Below, piece by piece: positions 3,365 to 7,563 of a DNA stretch of 7,563 nucleotides (position 1 is the first letter of the stretch; every line of letters begins with the position of its first letter). Made by a program: the position numbers and the translations under genes. A model generated the notes under the pieces. That model did no database searches. It was not told the DNA's origin and saw nothing but the letters and a program-made list of their open reading frames with translations. The stretch is from Vulcanimicrobiia bacterium (GTDB lineage: Bacteria > Eremiobacterota > Eremiobacteria > Baltobacterales > Baltobacteraceae): positions 1 through 7,563 of the forward strand of contig JAMXLG010000113.1 of the NCBI GenBank assembly GCA_024281135.1. Reading direction: 5' to 3'.

Positions 3365-4040
3365 GATAGTAATATCCCCGCTCTTCGTCGGTAACGATTT
3401 TGCCGTCTTCTAAACGCACGACGCGGCGGCGCATGCGATCGACAACGGCTTGGTTGTGGGTTGCGACCACGACGGTCGTCCCTTTGAGATTGATGCGGAG
3501 CAACAGCTCCATAATTTCCGTCGTGTTCGACGGGTCGAGGTTGCCGGTCGGCTCGTCGCAGAGCAGCAGCTTCGGATGGTTAACGAGCGCGCGTGCTATA
3601 GCCGTGCGCTGTTGCTCTCCACCGGAGAGCTCCCCGGGGAACATCCGGCTCTTGTGCGAGAGACCGACGAGATCGAGCGCTCGCGGAACTTCACGCATGA
3701 TCTCTTTGCTGTGCGCGCCGGTAACTTGCATCGCAAACGCGACGTTCTCCCAGACCGTTTTGTCGGCAAGGAGCTTGAAATCTTGAAACACGACGCCGAG
3801 ATGGCGACGTAAGGCCGGGATGCGTCCGCGCTTAAGCCGGTCGACGCGTATGCCGTCGACCGTGATCTCACCACTAGTCGGAACCGTCTCTTTGTAAAGG
3901 AGGCGGAGGAGACTCGATTTGCCGGTGCCCGAATGGCCGACGAGGAAGACGAAGTCGCCCTTGCCGATTTCGAGACTTACATTATCGAGGGCGCGTACCC
4001 CATTAGGGTAGATCAGCGAGACATTGCGTATCGAAATCAT
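3330..4040 (-). CDS. ftsE: Cell division ATP-binding protein FtsE
   Basis: FtsE is the cytosolic ABC ATPase that pairs with FtsX to transmit ATP hydrolysis to cell-wall hydrolase activators. The 236-residue protein has all motifs: Walker A GHSGTGKS at 35-42, Q-loop Q86 in VVFQDFKLL, signature LSGGEQQR at 138-145, Walker B LLLCDEP at 158-164, D-loop GNLD at 166-169, and switch H195 in VVATHN. The opening MISIRNVSLIYPNGVRALDN is a normal FtsE N-terminus, so I start at the ATG at 4040. The frame stays open for another 132 codons upstream, but that extension has no ABC homology and lies antisense to the acyl-CoA dehydrogenase. The C-terminus ends in EERGYYYLGLGQGQVLSG, a short Tyr/Gly tail whose coding DNA is also the start of ftsX in another frame. 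No strong Shine-Dalgarno is visible before 4040. This is the first gene of the operon. Confidence 0.96.
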   Translation of the reverse strand: MISIRNVSLIYPNGVRALDNVSLEIGKGDFVFLVGHSGTGKSSLLRLLYKETVPTSGEITVDGIRVDRLKRGRIPALRRHLGVVFQDFKLLADKTVWENVAFAMQVTGAHSKEIMREVPRALDLVGLSHKSRMFPGELSGGEQQRTAIARALVNHPKLLLCDEPTGNLDPSNTTEIMELLLRINLKGTTVVVATHNQAVVDRMRRRVVRLEDGKIVTDEERGYYYLGLGQGQVLSG

Positions 4041-4088
4041 CGCTGTAAAAGGGGTTTTCCTGAGGCCACGGCCTATACCTCCGGTCGT
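4041..4088. promoter_or_regulatory. Divergent promoter spacer between ftsE and acyl-CoA dehydrogenase
   Basis: Only 48 bp separate the two divergent start codons, so promoters for both genes must lie here or inside the opposing genes. It contains a perfect 12-bp inverted repeat AGGCCACGGCCT (4063-4074), followed at 4074-4079 by TATACC, which reads TATAGG-like on the other strand. This could be a shared -10 region with an overlapping operator. No convincing -35 is visible in either direction. Function is inferred from position only. Confidence 0.4.
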
Positions 4089-5237
4089 ATGAATTTCGAC
4101 CTGACCGACGAGCAGAAAGCAATCCAAGACCTCGCGCGCGATTTTGCGCAGAACGAGGTTAAGCCACGCGCTGAAGAGATGGATCGCGACGAAGCGTTCC
4201 CGTACGACCTCGTCAAAAAGATGGCCGAGCTCGGTTTCATGGGCTTGCCATTTCCCGAGGAATACGGTGGCGCAGGTGCCGATACCGTAAGCTACGCTCT
4301 CGCGGTCATGGAGATCGCGCGTGCCGACGCATCGACCGCGATCACGATGGCTGCGCACGTTTCTCTTGGGGCGACGCCTTTCTATCTTTTCGGCACCGAG
4401 GCTCAGAAACAGAAGTACTTGGTGCCGCTGGCTCAAGGAAAAATGCTGTGGGGTTTCGGCCTAACCGAGCCCAACGCGGGTAGCGACGCCGGCAACACGA
4501 CAACCAAGGCCTCGCTGCAAAACGGCAATTGGGTGATCAACGGAACGAAAGCGTTTATCACCAACTCAGGTACGGAAGTCAGCGGTGGAACGACGATCAC
4601 GGCGGTCACCGGCACCCGCGATGACGGCAAGCCCGAGATTTCGAATATCATCGTGCCGCAAGATACGCCCGGCTTCACGCGCAGCAAGAAGTACAAAAAG
4701 ATGGGCTGGCGCGCGTCGGACACCCGCGAGCTGAGCTTCAACGACGCGAAAGTTGCCGAGGACAACTTGCTTGGCCCACGAGGCGAGGGCTACCGTCAAT
4801 TTTTAACAATTCTCGACGGCGGCCGCATTTCGGTTGCCGCGCTTTCCGTGGGTCTTGCGATGGGCGCGTACGACGAAGCGCTGCAATATTCGAAAGATCG
4901 CGTCGCGTTCGGTAAACCGATCAGCAAGTTCCAGGCGATTCAATTCAAACTCGTCGACATGCTGTGTGAAATCGAACACGCGAAGTTGATGATTTTGCGC
5001 GCGGCGTGGGAGAAAGACAACGGACGCGATTACGTGCAAACCGCATCGCTCGCAAAACTTTACGCCGCCGAAGTCTCACGCCGCGTCGTAAACGAAGCGC
5101 TCCAAATCCACGGCGGCTACGGCTTCATGGACGAATATCCGGTCTCACGCATGTACCGCGATCAAAAAATCAACGAAATCGGCGAAGGCACCAACGAAGT
5201 ACAACGCCTGGTCATTGCACGCTTGATGGGATTGTAG
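4089..5237 (+). CDS. Acyl-CoA dehydrogenase (FAD-dependent, short/branched-chain type)
   Basis: It catalyses alpha,beta-dehydrogenation of an acyl-CoA, passing electrons from FAD to electron-transfer flavoprotein, in fatty-acid or branched-chain amino-acid breakdown. The 382-residue length is normal. The N-terminal helical domain begins MNFDLTDEQKAIQDLARDFA. Family signature 1 is LTEPNAGSD at 125-133. Signature 2 starts at QIHGGYGFMDEYPVSRMYRD (339-358), and the catalytic-base position is E366 in NEIGEGTNEVQR. RVAFGKPISKFQAIQFKLVD (271-290) is the usual C-terminal helix contacting FAD/CoA. The frame is open back to 3933, but residues before MNF are non-homologous and antisense to ftsE, so the start is the ATG at 4089. 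No clear Shine-Dalgarno precedes it; the transcript may be short-leadered. Exact substrate (butyryl, isobutyryl or other) cannot be read from sequence. It stands alone here, with no etf or thiolase neighbours, and ends just before a palindromic cassette. Confidence 0.95.
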   Translation: MNFDLTDEQKAIQDLARDFAQNEVKPRAEEMDRDEAFPYDLVKKMAELGFMGLPFPEEYGGAGADTVSYALAVMEIARADASTAITMAAHVSLGATPFYLFGTEAQKQKYLVPLAQGKMLWGFGLTEPNAGSDAGNTTTKASLQNGNWVINGTKAFITNSGTEVSGGTTITAVTGTRDDGKPEISNIIVPQDTPGFTRSKKYKKMGWRASDTRELSFNDAKVAEDNLLGPRGEGYRQFLTILDGGRISVAALSVGLAMGAYDEALQYSKDRVAFGKPISKFQAIQFKLVDMLCEIEHAKLMILRAAWEKDNGRDYVQTASLAKLYAAEVSRRVVNEALQIHGGYGFMDEYPVSRMYRDQKINEIGEGTNEVQRLVIARLMGL

Positions 5238-5238
5238 T

Positions 5239-5394
5239 AACGCGCCGTGTCATCCTGACGCTCGTGTCACCCTGAGCTTGTCGAAGGGCCGCATCAATTT
5301 AAAAGCCCGCCGGAACGTATCGGCGGGCTTTTTGTTCATAACGATCCTTCGACAAGCTCAGGATGACACGAGTGTCAGGATGACACGGCGCGTT
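5239..5394. repeat. Palindromic cassette 1: long inverted repeat with embedded bidirectional terminator
   Basis: The left arm (5239-5287) and right arm (5346-5394) match at 47 of 49 positions when one is reverse-complemented. One of the two mismatches would be a G-U wobble in plus-strand RNA and the other in minus-strand RNA. Between the arms lies a terminator hairpin. The arms contain the motif TCATCCTGAGCTTGTCGAAG or its variant, which I recognise as a widespread dispersed palindromic repeat in many GC-rich genomes (recollection, not searched). Each arm holds two tandem 17-bp units: 5246-5262 plus 5263-5279 on the left, 5354-5370 plus 5371-5387 on the right. The right arm overlaps the 3' end of msrA and supplies its last codons and stop. 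The core 5263-5370 aligns to cassette 2 at about 94 of 106 positions by hand. Confidence 0.9.
5301..5333. terminator. Rho-independent bidirectional terminator within cassette 1
   Basis: A perfect 12-bp stem, AAAAGCCCGCCG (5301-5312) with CGGCGGGCTTTT (5321-5332), closes an 8-base loop and is followed by one more T. The run of five T on the plus strand and four A on the left side give a U-tract in both directions. It should therefore stop both the acyl-CoA dehydrogenase (plus) and msrA (minus) transcripts. Confidence 0.9.
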
Positions 5395-5890
5395 GTGGGA
5401 GTTTCCAGTCTGGGCGGATGAAGTGACAGGTGTAGCCGTCGGGATATTTTTGTAGGTAGTCCTGGTGTTCGGGTTCGGCTTCCCAGAACGGACCCGCGGG
5501 CGCAACTTCCGTCACGACTTTGCCGGGCCACAGTCCGGATGCATCGACGTCTGCGATCGTATCTTCCGCGATGCGGCGTTGCTCGTCGGTGGTGTAGTAA
5601 ATCGCCGAACGATAGCTCATGCCGCGATCGTTGCCTTGACGATTGAGCGTCGTCGGGTCGTGAATTTGAAAGAAGAACTCGAGGAGTTGGCGATAGCTCA
5701 GTTTCGACGGATCAAAAACAATTTCGATCGCTTCGGCATGCGTGCCGTGATTGCGGTACGTCGCGTTTGCGACGTCGCCGCCGGCATACCCGACACGCGT
5801 CGAAATCACGCCGGGATAGTTGCGCAGCAGTTCTTGCATGCCCCAGAAGCAGCCGCCGGCGAGAACCGCTCGCTCGGTATGTGAATCCAT
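5375..5890 (-). CDS. msrA: Peptide-methionine (S)-S-oxide reductase MsrA
   Basis: MsrA reduces the S-epimer of methionine sulfoxide in proteins and free methionine, using thioredoxin, and acts in the cytosol. The 171-residue protein has the catalytic motif GGCFWGMQE with nucleophile C14, then [12 protein letters not shown], the glutamate-containing [11 protein letters not shown], and [19 protein letters not shown] (72-90). The C-terminal [14 protein letters not shown] carries C155, the only other cysteine and so the likely resolving residue. There is no signal peptide and no MsrB fusion. The ATG at 5890 is preceded by GGAGG with a 7-base spacer (5898-5902 on the opposite strand), a strong ribosome-binding site. 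The final residues QRAVSS and the TGA stop are encoded inside the right arm of the palindromic cassette, so the native C-terminus was probably altered when the repeat inserted. It lies 37 bp downstream of the DUF695-like gene on the same strand and may be co-transcribed with it. Confidence 0.97.
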
Positions 5891-5903
5891 AGTTTATCCT
5901 CCG

Positions 5904-5928
5904 CCTATAGGAACCGGTTCGCGCGAAC
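5904..5928. promoter_or_regulatory. Chain of three overlapping perfect palindromes upstream of msrA (possible operator)
   Basis: CCTATAGG (5904-5911), GAACCGGTTC (5911-5920) and GTTCGCGCGAAC (5917-5928) are each perfect palindromes and overlap one another in 25 bp. They fill most of the 37-bp gap before msrA. On the minus strand TATAGG (5905-5910) could act as a -10 box just ahead of the ribosome-binding site, so a dimeric repressor bound here would block it. The GAAC/GTTC spacing does not match the LexA box types I know. Regulatory function is inferred from symmetry and position. Confidence 0.4.
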
Positions 5929-6332
5929 TATGTTGCATCCCGGTCGTCCGGAATGATCTCCTCGTTCGCCGGCAACAACGTGCGGTAGAGTTGCCACGTG
6001 CGATCGTCGTTCGTTTGTATGGCGATCGGTTCGTCGACGGTCGAGACGATTTCACGGAGCCGCCCGTCATCGTCGCCGTAGACGAGCAGGGTGCGCGATC
6101 CGCTCATCGTCAGCACTGCGACGAGCATGAACCCCTGCGCATCAAGCTGTTCCTTCAAGTACTCCTCGAGCTCACGAGCCGGCGTCGGATCCGCGCCGTC
6201 CTCAATTCGGCGAACGAGCAAAAACGCGAGCGGACGTGAAGGTAAATCGCGTTCTGCGTTGATTCCGATATCGATGCTGATCGAGGCGGTCTCGTCGTCT
6301 TGCGACCGTACGTATGAGTACCACTGCGCCAT
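5928..6332 (-). CDS. DUF695-like hypothetical protein
   Basis: This 134-residue soluble protein resembles the DUF695 family, whose function is unknown. The order of features fits from memory: an N-terminal MAQWYSYVRSQDDETASISI with the W-x-x-Y then A-S-I pattern, a central helix (ARELEEYLKEQLDAQ), a beta segment RTLLVYGDDDGRLREIV, and a C-terminal DRTWQLYRTLLPANEE with the W-x-x-Y...P pattern. It has no signal peptide, membrane segment or cysteine. I start at the ATG at 6332, because the nine residues added by the in-frame ATG at 6359 (MRPAVKSRH) lie before the conserved opening. Neither start has a strong Shine-Dalgarno. The TAG stop overlaps the end of the palindrome chain upstream of msrA. 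It is divergent from the peroxiredoxin and upstream of msrA, so a link to oxidative stress is possible but rests on position only. Confidence 0.75.
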   Translation of the reverse strand: MAQWYSYVRSQDDETASISIDIGINAERDLPSRPLAFLLVRRIEDGADPTPARELEEYLKEQLDAQGFMLVAVLTMSGSRTLLVYGDDDGRLREIVSTVDEPIAIQTNDDRTWQLYRTLLPANEEIIPDDRDAT

Positions 6333-6372
6333 ATGCCTGGACTTAACCGCCGGCCTCATTTAGACTTTCTTC

Positions 6373-6382
6373 ATCAATTGAT
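6373..6382. promoter_or_regulatory. Perfect palindrome ATCAATTGAT in the DUF695/peroxiredoxin divergent spacer
   Basis: This 10-bp AT-rich palindrome lies directly before the GGAGGG ribosome-binding site of the peroxiredoxin gene (6384-6389) and within the spacer to the divergent DUF695-like gene. It could be an operator controlling one or both genes. I see no convincing -35/-10 pair nearby, and a 10-bp palindrome can arise by chance, so this is tentative. Confidence 0.3.
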
Positions 6383-6396
6383 TGGAGGGTGATTCC

Positions 6397-6942
6397 ATGT
6401 TTCGTCGCGTCTTTTTAACGGCCGTCACACTTCTTCTGGCTTGTGCTCTTCCCGCGTTGGCCGCCCTCAACGAAGGCGCCAAGGCACCCGATTTCACGCT
6501 CCAAGCAACGCAGGGCGGCAAGGTCTTCACATTCTCACTGGCCGATGCGCTCAAAAACGGGCCGGTCGTCCTCTACTTCTATCCGGCGGCGTTTACGCCG
6601 GGCTGTACGATGGAAGCACACGAGTTCGCTGAAGCGATCGATCAATACAAGGCGCTTCACGCAACGGTCATCGGCGTCTCTCACGATCCGCTTGATAAGT
6701 TGCAGAAGTTCTCAGTGAGCGAGTGCCGCAGCAAGTTCGCGGTTGCCGCCGACACCGATCAAACCGTCGAAAAACAGTACGACGCCGTGCTCGACAAAGC
6801 GCCGCAATACGCGAACCGCACCTCGTATGTGATTGCGCCCGACGGCACGGTCATCTACACCTACACCAATCTAAAGCCCGACGATCACGTAAAAAACACG
6901 CTCGCCGCACTAAAAGACTGGGAAGCCAAGAACAAACAGTAA
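6397..6942 (+). CDS. Exported BCP/PrxQ-like peroxiredoxin
   Basis: It is a thiol peroxidase reducing hydrogen or organic peroxides, probably in the periplasm. The 181-residue precursor starts with a signal sequence (MFRRVFLTAVTLLLACALPA) and could be cut after LPALA at residue 22. LLAC at 13-16 also resembles a lipobox, so lipoprotein processing at C16 is an alternative. The mature part opens with GAKAPDFTLQ and carries the peroxiredoxin core FYPAAFTPGCTMEAHEF with peroxidatic C70. The PrxQ resolving cysteine five residues later is absent (H75 is there). The only other cysteine beyond the signal region is C110, 40 residues on, so it is either a 1-Cys enzyme or uses C110. DTDQTVEKQYDA and RTSYVIAPDGTVIYTY complete the family pattern. 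The start at 6397 is fixed by GGAGGG seven bases upstream; the TTG at 6382 is inside that site region. The TAA stop is the first triplet of a palindromic cassette arm. Confidence 0.93.
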   Translation: MFRRVFLTAVTLLLACALPALAALNEGAKAPDFTLQATQGGKVFTFSLADALKNGPVVLYFYPAAFTPGCTMEAHEFAEAIDQYKALHATVIGVSHDPLDKLQKFSVSECRSKFAVAADTDQTVEKQYDAVLDKAPQYANRTSYVIAPDGTVIYTYTNLKPDDHVKNTLAALKDWEAKNKQ

Positions 6943-7077
6943 CTCGCCCCTGCCCCGTGTCATCCTGAGCTTGTCGCAGGACTGCCTCAATTCAAAAGCC
7001 CGACGGAATCTCGCCGGGCTTTTTGTTCGTAGCGATCCTTCGACAGGCTCAGGATGACACGGGGGCGGGGCGAGTTA
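6940..7077. repeat. Palindromic cassette 2: long inverted repeat with embedded terminator
   Basis: The left arm (6940-6980) and right arm (7037-7077) match at 37 of 41 positions when one is reverse-complemented. The interior matches cassette 1 in the same orientation (6956-7061 against 5263-5370, about 88% by hand alignment). The outer tips differ from cassette 1: here they start TAACTCGCCCC on both sides, whereas cassette 1 has AACGCGCCGTGTCATCCTGA. Only a single 17-bp unit is present per arm. Both flanking genes end exactly in the tips: the peroxiredoxin TAA is 6940-6942 and the rmuC TAA is 7075-7077 read on the minus strand. Confidence 0.9.
6994..7024. terminator. Rho-independent bidirectional terminator within cassette 2
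   Basis: AAAAGCCCGACG (6994-7005) pairs with CGCCGGGCTTTT (7012-7023) across a 6-base loop, with one mismatch (A7003 opposite C7014; a G-U wobble in the minus-strand RNA). Five T follow on the plus strand and four A lie on the other side. It should end both the peroxiredoxin (plus) and rmuC (minus) transcripts. Confidence 0.87.
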
Positions 7078-7563
7078 GCCCGATAGTTCTTCGTTTTGGA
7101 AGAGGTTTGGGGTTGCGGGGTCGCGTTTGGGTTTTTTGGTGGGGGCCGTGTCGAGTGAAGTGATGGAGCGTGGGTTGATGTCGATGACGTTGATTTCGGG
7201 CATCTCGTCGCCGGTGAGCGCGGCTTCGTCTTTGAGCTTACGGCCTTGCGGGAGCAGGCGCGATTCGTAAGTGCCGACGGTTTCGTTGAAGGACGACACG
7301 GCGCGTTCGAGATTTTTTCCTAGGCCGACGAGCTTGTCGGCGAAGCGCGTCGCGCGTTCGTAGAGTTCCCGTCCGAGCAACGCGATGCGTTTCGCATTTT
7401 CTTCTTGCTTCACGGCTTGCCAACCCATCGCAAACGACCGCAGCAAGCTGATCAGCGAAAGGGGGCCGGTTACGAGCACCCCTTTGTCGAGCGCATACTC
7501 GATCAGCGTCGGATTTTCGTTGCACGCTGCGCTCAAGAACGCTTCGCCCGGCACGAACATGAT
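7075..7563 (-). CDS. rmuC: DNA recombination protein RmuC, C-terminal part (runs off right edge)
   Basis: The visible 162 residues are the end of an RmuC protein, a family linked to limiting recombination at inverted repeats, with a nuclease-like fold. The stretch MFVPGEAFLSAACNENPTLI (7501-7560), then LDKGVLVTGPLSLISLLRSF and AMGWQ, is the conserved RmuC core end. It is followed by a helical/coiled region (ELYERATRFADKLVGLGKNL, then ERAVSSFNETVGTYESRLLP). A Pro/Lys-rich, probably disordered tail (TAPTKKPKRDPATPN) ends in FQNEELSG. The reading frame continues past 7563, so the methionine encoded at 7558-7560 is internal, and the N-terminal coiled coil and start lie outside. The TAA stop coincides with the outer tip of the palindromic cassette. 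Family identity is secure from the MFVPGEAF and LLRSFAMGW motifs. Confidence 0.93.
   Translation of the reverse strand: MMFVPGEAFLSAACNENPTLIEYALDKGVLVTGPLSLISLLRSFAMGWQAVKQEENAKRIALLGRELYERATRFADKLVGLGKNLERAVSSFNETVGTYESRLLPQGRKLKDEAALTGDEMPEINVIDINPRSITSLDTAPTKKPKRDPATPNLFQNEELSG

Follow-up and report, generated by a model that had tools for sequence, protein, structure and literature searches.

Two cassettes, A (positions 5239-5394) and B (6940-7077), were seen in the window, the 7,563-nucleotide stretch of an Eremiobacterota genome that we analysed, and each is a long inverted repeat enclosing a bidirectional terminator-like hairpin. We consider it likely that the cassette is a head-to-head dimer of REP elements with a bidirectional terminator as its spacer, and that the pairing of the outermost tips is a local matter, brought about by template switching. 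Each cassette would thus consist of two short CGTC/TGTC-tagged REP elements that frame, head to head, a conserved spacer of about 50 nt; this spacer, a bidirectional intrinsic terminator as predicted from its sequence, lies directly past the convergent stop codons and would end transcription arriving from both genes.

Both copies close convergent gene pairs, as the first-pass annotation had said. Cassette A lies between AcdA (4089-5237, plus strand; its start is an inner ATG of a longer frame, 3933-5237) and MsrA (5375-5890, minus strand), and B between Prx (6382-6942, plus strand) and the 3' part of RmuC (7075-7563, minus strand). Judging from their sequences, AcdA is presumably acyl-CoA dehydrogenase-like and the other three presumably MsrA-like, peroxiredoxin-like and RmuC-like. 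All four are open reading frames, and AcdA, Prx and RmuC are also placed by synteny in relatives. By sequence, fold and palindrome scan, A comprises a left outer tip (5239-5264, plus), a left REP arm running from the TGTC tag to GAAGG..CG (5265-5291, plus), the hairpin (5301-5332, in the order A4, GC stem, loop, GC stem, T run), a right REP arm head-to-head to the left one (5342-5368, minus) and a right outer tip (5369-5394, minus), which contains the final 20 nt (5375-5394) of the MsrA frame, so that the 3' end of that gene falls within the right arm of A. Cassette B, delimited by the same three means, has the same layout: a left tip (6940-6957, plus) that starts with the Prx stop codon, a left REP arm (6958-6984, plus), the hairpin (6994-7023, from fold, spacer alignment and model; that of A from fold and alignment), a right REP arm (7033-7059, minus) and a right tip (7060-7077, minus) with the RmuC stop codon at its outer end.

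The arms of A (5239-5287 and 5346-5394) are 96% complementary over 49 nt, the 47/49 first reported, and those of B pair over 42 nt with 4 mismatches, close to the earlier 37/41. The core common to A and B is 87% identical over 53 nt and 92% over 51 nt, about 93/104 where 94/106 had been claimed. Folding energies are -125.1 kcal/mol for A and -101.5 kcal/mol for B. A palindrome scan (score of at least 18, gap of at most 130) found both cassettes in the window and nothing in the controls, three 3-mer shuffles for every one of 15 stretches. Scans of the window at Rfam gathering scores and of viral_contigs with a 25-mer each gave 0 matches, and none came from a plasmid search. The outer arms had been called unrelated between the copies; both contain the GTGTCATCCTGA tag, present in A's left tip as a second copy, and the truly private tips are AACGCGCC in A and a TAACTCGCCCC stretch in B. 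Left and right tips match at 11 (A) and 10 (B) of the 12 tag-adjacent nucleotides, against 4.0 +- 1.6 for other pairings, a comparison that rests on n = 2 copies.

In the spacer, sequence and fold reveal a hairpin with a G+C stem, A4 on one side and T5 on the other, the stem-and-T-run arrangement of an intrinsic terminator. A simple terminator scan of the window reported neither the A nor the B hairpin, probably because the longest stem includes the T run, paired with the A run, and the terminator assignment therefore rests on sequence and fold. Across 30 copies, one position of the stem varies as A-T, C-G, T-A and G-T pairs. Model R2, which covers the spacer and the adjoining REP tails, was trained on 30 copies, the two of the window among them; it necessarily detects these two, and it finds at least 40 distinct places in the nearest genome compared (G001; FtsX 90% identical). 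One reservation is that R2 and alignment A3 contain at least three misoriented spacers (L002, L019, L087); the 21:9 tally of spacer orientations from the same step was set aside.

The genome-wide check of the core was run in G001, the nearest genome found. Exact TGTCATCCTGA tags number 184 in G001, against 0 reversed-control matches, and 76 of the 100 tags among the matches listed (184 in total) form 38 inverted, head-to-head pairs. Together with the R2 places, these counts uphold the proposal that the cassette is repeated across the genome and encloses a bidirectional terminator-like hairpin. A 'tag' near Prx in G002 (L109:3571) was discarded as a one-mismatch match in other, apparently coding, sequence. 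Dimers were taken from similarity matches, the first 100 of the 184 tags and a few neighbours; the 58 so gathered, the 2 window copies included, became 55 on removal of three duplicate views (L018 twice, L025), and 54 without L069:1640, whose right arm could not be parsed. For the arm test, leaving out the 2 window copies, 8 second tandem or near-identical copies, L083 and L099 gave 42 dimers, with tips scored in 41. Palindromes can be mis-assembled; G001 is a MAG, the remaining genomes are split into many contigs, and contig ends that fold back were observed in G008 and G065.

What is preserved in this family is each arm's own small hairpin, not arm-to-arm pairing. Each arm would fold alone as a REP, TGTC-ATCCT-GA-R..Y-GA-AGGAT-CG, in most cases turning through C(GNA)G. 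Among the 84 arms of the 42 dimers, the ATCCT/AGGAT stem, which starts with AT and is then interrupted by a GA/GA mismatch and an R-Y pair, was found in 74, the R-Y pair in 83, GA/GA in 82 and C(GNA)G in 78; TGTC is present in 83 of the 84, a count that is partly by construction, the arms having been located by a TGTC-initial pattern with one mismatch allowed. Most arms have a CG tail that leads into the spacer. Since the R-Y covariation involves essentially two states, few events may lie behind it. The R states of left and right arms are independent over 54 dimers (P = 0.41). We suggest that the single-arm hairpin is the unit kept and that each arm comes from a pool of REP variants, and therefore that most dimers would be heterodimers.

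The first-pass annotation had read the within-copy match of the arms as a rule, with either one arm regularly rewritten from the other or the whole long stem selected. The matched tips of both window copies speak for this, as does a second palindrome family in relatives, which does pair within copies (own-arm score 19.8 versus 2.5). In G001, paired outer tips (at least 8/12) occur in 3/41 dimers (P = 0.02), and identical arms were observed in 3 of 42 against 0.62 expected, the latter excess being a slight sign for arm copying. However, arm identity within the 42 dimers is 0.628 against 0.608 +- 0.025 between dimers (a level reached in 2085 of 10000 permutations), and same-length arms number 12 against 11.1 expected. 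Concordance therefore stands locally, in both window copies, and in the second family, but not as a rule of the REP-dimer family; the argument built on it falls with the finding that copies in G001 mostly lack pairing tips. We regard regular rewriting or selection of the whole stem as improbable for the family: tip pairing is genuine in both window copies, yet it is no family rule.

We favour the head-to-head dimer with locally paired tips, and the pairing in the window would most likely reflect a replication template switch inside the long hairpin, copying one flank onto the other and flipping the loop as well. Two orthologous sites could be compared, site B and L008/L045 (where the cassette-adjoining gene is common only on the left side). 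At both, the arms differ and the spacer lies in reverse orientation with respect to the genes, which is what template switching would produce. The window stops at site B are both TAA and fall within paired tips, and the G001 stops are TGA and TAG, with unpaired tips; relatives have other arms at the same site, or no cassette. Identical orientation of the loop, also claimed earlier, is not general: beyond these inversions, of the 6 co-directional G001 copies 2 have the CCTC loop end upstream and 4 have it downstream. Arm homogenisation and spacer inversion are described for template-switch (quasipalindrome) mutation in the relevant parts of two published accounts (PMC8604942; PMC8794818), and the cassettes have both in common with it; as these parts present it, template switching is a process and not an element, and for the cassettes we infer it from two sites.

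In one relative, the site orthologous to B holds a member of the unrelated second family, with private stems paired within copies. Own-arm scores in 26 of 33 copies exceed the 99th percentile of cross-copy scores. The family covaries strongly and is present in 53/98 genomes; the mismatch count, covariation count and model R1 were taken from 28 of the 33 copies (arm score of at least 11), the other five having poor or gapped arms. An Rfam search of seven loci at E <= 0.5 gave 11 matches, all to miRNA/sRNA models below gathering scores, and the family is a candidate for an unreported structured RNA. Between the sister genomes G008 and G065, one clean pair with both arms was available (L198/L204), other pairs being spoilt by contigs that end in or fold back at the palindrome. 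Its two arms share states specific to each species, one of them a length difference of a single base; as the core differs too, the case is only suggestive.

Dimers in G001 strongly favour convergent gene ends, the position of both window copies. The context set comprised 44 dimers, without the 2 window copies and 8 second tandem copies, with genes called by a simple codon model; 4 of the 44 were not scorable, and the remaining 40 were 26 convergent, 14 co-directional and 0 divergent. Among 163 background gene pairs, 28 were convergent, 98 co-directional and 37 divergent (P = 8.6e-9 for convergent; P = 1.6e-4 for zero divergent). With all 54 dimers kept, 33 were convergent, 14 co-directional, 0 divergent and 7 not scorable. 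Spacers with a terminator were only weakly more often convergent (19/25) than those without (7/15; P = 0.09).

Among known REP systems, the CGTC-tagged superfamily (Di Nocera et al. 2013, PMC3733652), as far as the sections consulted describe it, shares with the cassettes a CGTC/TGTC end, a stem starting with AT, mostly head-to-head homo- and heterodimers, partly conserved and sometimes structured spacers, a bias to convergent and co-directional gaps and, apparently, the lack of a dedicated transposase. In the same sections, the superfamily has a stem of 8-9 bp and a short unpaired tail, mostly CCA, whereas the cassettes have 5 bp plus the GA/GA mismatch and one covarying pair, and a CG tail; unlike that superfamily as described there, many cassette arms have a further inner hairpin and the spacer is predicted to terminate transcription in both directions. 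REPINs and the RAYT-associated GTAG REPs are likewise high-copy, dispersed pairs of inverted REPs able to form one long hairpin. An active REPIN-like element, mobilised by a REP-associated Y1 (RAYT) transposase, would account for the copy number, the head-to-head dimers, the nested and tandem REPs, and the fact that relatives have different arms or lack the cassette at a shared site. However, the tag is TGTC and not GTAG, the one tied to RAYTs in the part of PMC3733652 that treats them, and the transposase that the first reading had suggested looking for (PF01797, Y1) had no match in G001, a MAG, or in any of the 12 genomes with at least 20 tags, compared with 8/37 other genomes tested for both (a difference that is not significant, P = 0.17). 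One of these 8 genomes, G034, has 19 tags. We think such mobilisation distinctly unlikely.

Insertion of cassettes into pre-existing palindromes, the tips being target halves, has a precedent in REP dimers within long palindromes of A. variabilis and H. neapolitanus, mentioned in the portion of PMC3733652 on these species, but was set aside as very unlikely: all 7 above-limit inverted repeats in the 15 stretches (about 187 kb) contain a REP or second-family core, no long palindrome stands alone, and tips are unpaired in 38/41 G001 dimers. DNA-uptake signals occur as inverted pairs at terminators in Neisseria. A similar role for the tag, a short exact word in many inverted copies by terminators, is scarcely credible here, since what is conserved is not a short word but an entire hairpin that pairs with itself, has structured loops and includes a covarying pair.

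Among the open-access papers searched, none by its title deals with this cassette or with the second family. Tentatively, and with more doubt than belief, we suggest that in this phylum the gaps between facing genes may be occupied by palindromes that carry terminators but are unrelated to one another, REP dimers or the structured-RNA family according to lineage, and that template switching would time and again rewrite their outer stems from one flank; by extending over both stops and flipping their loops, they would copy gene ends from a gene to its neighbour. The REP-dimer family, from a phylum about which little is known, resembles a set of ready-made terminators for both directions, and its data separate the conserved self-hairpin of the arm from the non-conserved arm-to-arm pairing, which two copies cannot do. 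The orthologous sites, with their inverted loops and with stops in paired tips, are a natural setting in which to study template-switch mutation at gene ends.

The two palindromes of the first-pass annotation, cassette A at 5239-5394 (between AcdA and MsrA) and cassette B at 6940-7077 (between Prx and RmuC), were confirmed in both position and arm pairing, and no palindrome above the same score limit appeared when each of 15 stretches was shuffled three times. Both were also confirmed as members of a repeat family: the nearest relative, a MAG (G001), carries the word TGTCATCCTGA 184 times, compared with zero for the reversed control, and 38 inverted pairs of 86-138 bp were found there from 76 of the 100 tag places listed. 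A covariance model of the cassette spacer and the two REP tails (R2), trained on 30 copies including both from the window, whose own matches to it are thus by construction, detected at least 40 distinct places in G001 and at least 11 matches in a second relative, G002 (E <= 1e-4). Nine other genomes gave one or two weak matches each, which are lower bounds, and at least 11 of 98 genomes were positive at E <= 1e-4. Within the reach of the R2 search, the terminator cassette is mostly restricted to the window's closest relatives, whereas the REP tag is spread more widely, in 35 of 60 genomes. In one genome (G011:C1:68592-69634), tags stand head to tail in an array spaced at 57-59 bp, beyond which a second array runs in the opposite orientation at about 60 bp.

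Each copy reads TGTC-ATCCT-GA-R...Y-GA-AGGAT-CG, then a spacer, and then the same REP inverted. Terminator spacers are 47-52 nt long and consist of a flank like CCTCAATTC, a G+C hairpin between A and T runs, and a flank like TTGTTCGTAG. A second spacer class of 20-21 nt has nearly the same two ends and no hairpin; this terminator-less sister class occurs in G001 at loci L020, L068-L072, L076-L080, L084 and L102, and the short spacer of L102 resembles a terminator spacer minus its hairpin. A REP variant whose stem has ATGCT/AGCAT where the others have ATCCT/AGGAT, a double change that keeps the pairing, sits in two palindromes after AcdA in another relative (L119:2855-3122, G049). The dimers lie at gene ends: for 40 of the 44 G001 dimers, the end of a called gene fell within 50 bases of a tag on one side or both. 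Among the 40 of 44 with scorable gene context, 26 were convergent, 14 co-directional and none divergent, compared with 28, 98 and 37 background pairs from 15 stretches, taken from the same kind of codon-model gene calls. The convergent share was somewhat higher for terminator spacers (19/25) than for the others (7/15; P = 0.09).

The first-pass annotation had argued that arms matching within each copy while the copies diverge meant that either structure was selected or one arm was rewritten from the other. Such arm-to-arm concordance did not hold in 42 G001 dimers: within-copy identity was 0.628, versus 0.608 +- 0.025 when arms were permuted, and 2085 of 10000 permutations reached the observed value. 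Between copies, left arms were 0.624 and right arms 0.596 identical, and identical-arm dimers showed a modest excess (3/42, with 0.62 expected). Because within-copy identity is close to that of permuted arms, the arms are mostly a mix of REP variants, with heterodimers making up most copies; heterodimers are likewise described for the CGTC-2 and CGTC-3 families (PMC3733652). The concordance lies instead within the single arm, where the R-Y pair (after GA and before GA) was A-T in 50 of 84 cases and G-C in 33, with one exception, and inner-loop variants such as GGTGCGAAGCACC are shared by both states. A GA/GA step was present in 82 of 84 G001 arms and a C(GNA)G turn in 78; both are features of unusually stable DNA hairpins, which makes a single-stranded DNA role for REP plausible. 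The REP-associated (Y1) transposase gene that the first-pass annotation had advised looking for was not found in the tag-rich genomes: PF01797 matched neither G001 nor any of the 12 genomes carrying at least 20 tags, counts to be read knowing that MAGs can miss genes. It was present in 8 of 37 other genomes tested for both, and the difference from the tag-rich genomes was not significant (P = 0.17).

Pairing of the outer tips, the stretches beyond the tags, held in both window copies (11 and 10 of 12 bases) and was rare in G001. Over those 12 bases, own pairs in G001 matched at 4.3 and other pairs at 4.0 +- 1.6, and at least eight matches were reached by 3 of 41 dimers, where 1.4% was expected (P = 0.02). 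The paired tips of cassette B take in both genes' stop codons, each of them TAA; at the same site G001 has TGA and TAG, and unpaired tips. The right arm of cassette A holds the final 20 bases of the MsrA ORF, and the arm's other copy comes after the AcdA stop. Each outer arm of cassette A also contains a second tag, and since nested or tandem tags occur in G001 (L022) and repeatedly in G002, nested REPs may account for part of the A tips. In G002, REPs lie within REPs at L128 near 1073-1102, L065 near 1481-1511 and L045 near 1411-1475, in the first two cases at comparable internal positions, as though by insertion of one REP into another.

At site B, Prx and RmuC nearly abut in G044, with no cassette; the site in G002 holds roughly 0.8 kb of other sequence, apparently coding; and the G001 cassette there differs in its arms, which are longer, and carries its spacer inverted relative to the genes. 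At a second orthologous site, L008 in G001 and L045 in G002, the left flank is 82% identical, the arms differ and the spacer is again inverted, so that the loop orientation, identical in the two window copies, is not fixed at either orthologous site compared (n = 2). Template switching between inverted repeats appears the likeliest source of the window tips, judging from these two sites, since inverted spacers and homogenised arms are its reported products (PMC8604942, PMC8794818). The tip match in the window is real and local, and is best read as template-switch copying together with nested REPs.

The surrounding gene order is shared among relatives. AcdA and then Prx lie beside FtsX-FtsE in 11 of 12 stretches, the twelfth stopping short of both genes, and Prx faces RmuC in all eight that reach RmuC, some with other sequence intervening. 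In the window, the MsrA and DUF695 genes (5375-6359) sit between AcdA and Prx; G001 has DUF695 there without MsrA, and neither gene was found between AcdA and Prx in the stretches, some of them short, of 12 other genomes. For the DUF695 protein (5928-6359), 32 relatives came up at E <= 0.001, one of them named Candidatus Eremiobacteraeota; among 60 genomes it was detected in one. The sole matching genome contig, L001, is from the Candidatus Eremiobacterota MAG G001, whose FtsX is 90% identical to that of the window.

Selection on structure did find support in a different element. At site B, G008 carries a palindrome unlike the REP cassette (L110:3585-3770), one of a second, unrelated family with further loci at L148:1096-1184, L154:1111-1199 and elsewhere. 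The recurrent, multi-copy core, about 90 nt long, is conserved and comes with a hairpin resembling a terminator; the outer stem is private to each locus. In 33 full-core copies from several genomes, arms scored a mean of 19.8 against their own partner and 2.5 across copies, and 26 of the 33 exceeded the 99th percentile of cross-copy scores, although a few cross-copy pairs also scored high (best 34). These stems are private because structure is kept while stem sequence stays free. Arm mismatches in the 28 best copies were strongly one-sided: over 880 positions, read on the reverse complement of the original orientation, they comprised 49 G-U, 7 of the reverse kind and 23 transversions. The one-sidedness held whichever way neighbouring co-directional genes pointed (10:0 and 9:0) and between convergent genes (22:4; unassigned 8:3), which speaks for selection acting on a single folded strand, either RNA or single-stranded DNA; a strand bias of mutation is a less likely cause. 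Covariation in the reverse-complement fold was strong: 97.0% of cells were paired, with 150 double-change cells compared with 44.2 +- 4.8 in shuffles, and the covariation score was 0.478 compared with 0.061 or less in slid controls, which lean in the structure's favour because the structure came from the same alignment. At E <= 1e-4 the second-family model had matches in 53 of 98 genomes, with a maximum of 18 in a single genome, and had none in the window; Rfam gave no family at gathering score for seven loci. Where both sides were called (29 copies), 13 contexts were convergent, 16 co-directional and none divergent. Contigs end in or fold back at these palindromes in G065 (C198, C264) and G008 (C4, C8, C90), which calls for caution over how such sites are assembled. 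We consider the second family a candidate unreported structured RNA. The window cassettes themselves represent a new form of CGTC-type REP dimer, one that frames a predicted terminator at the 3' ends of genes and whose arms are free to vary.
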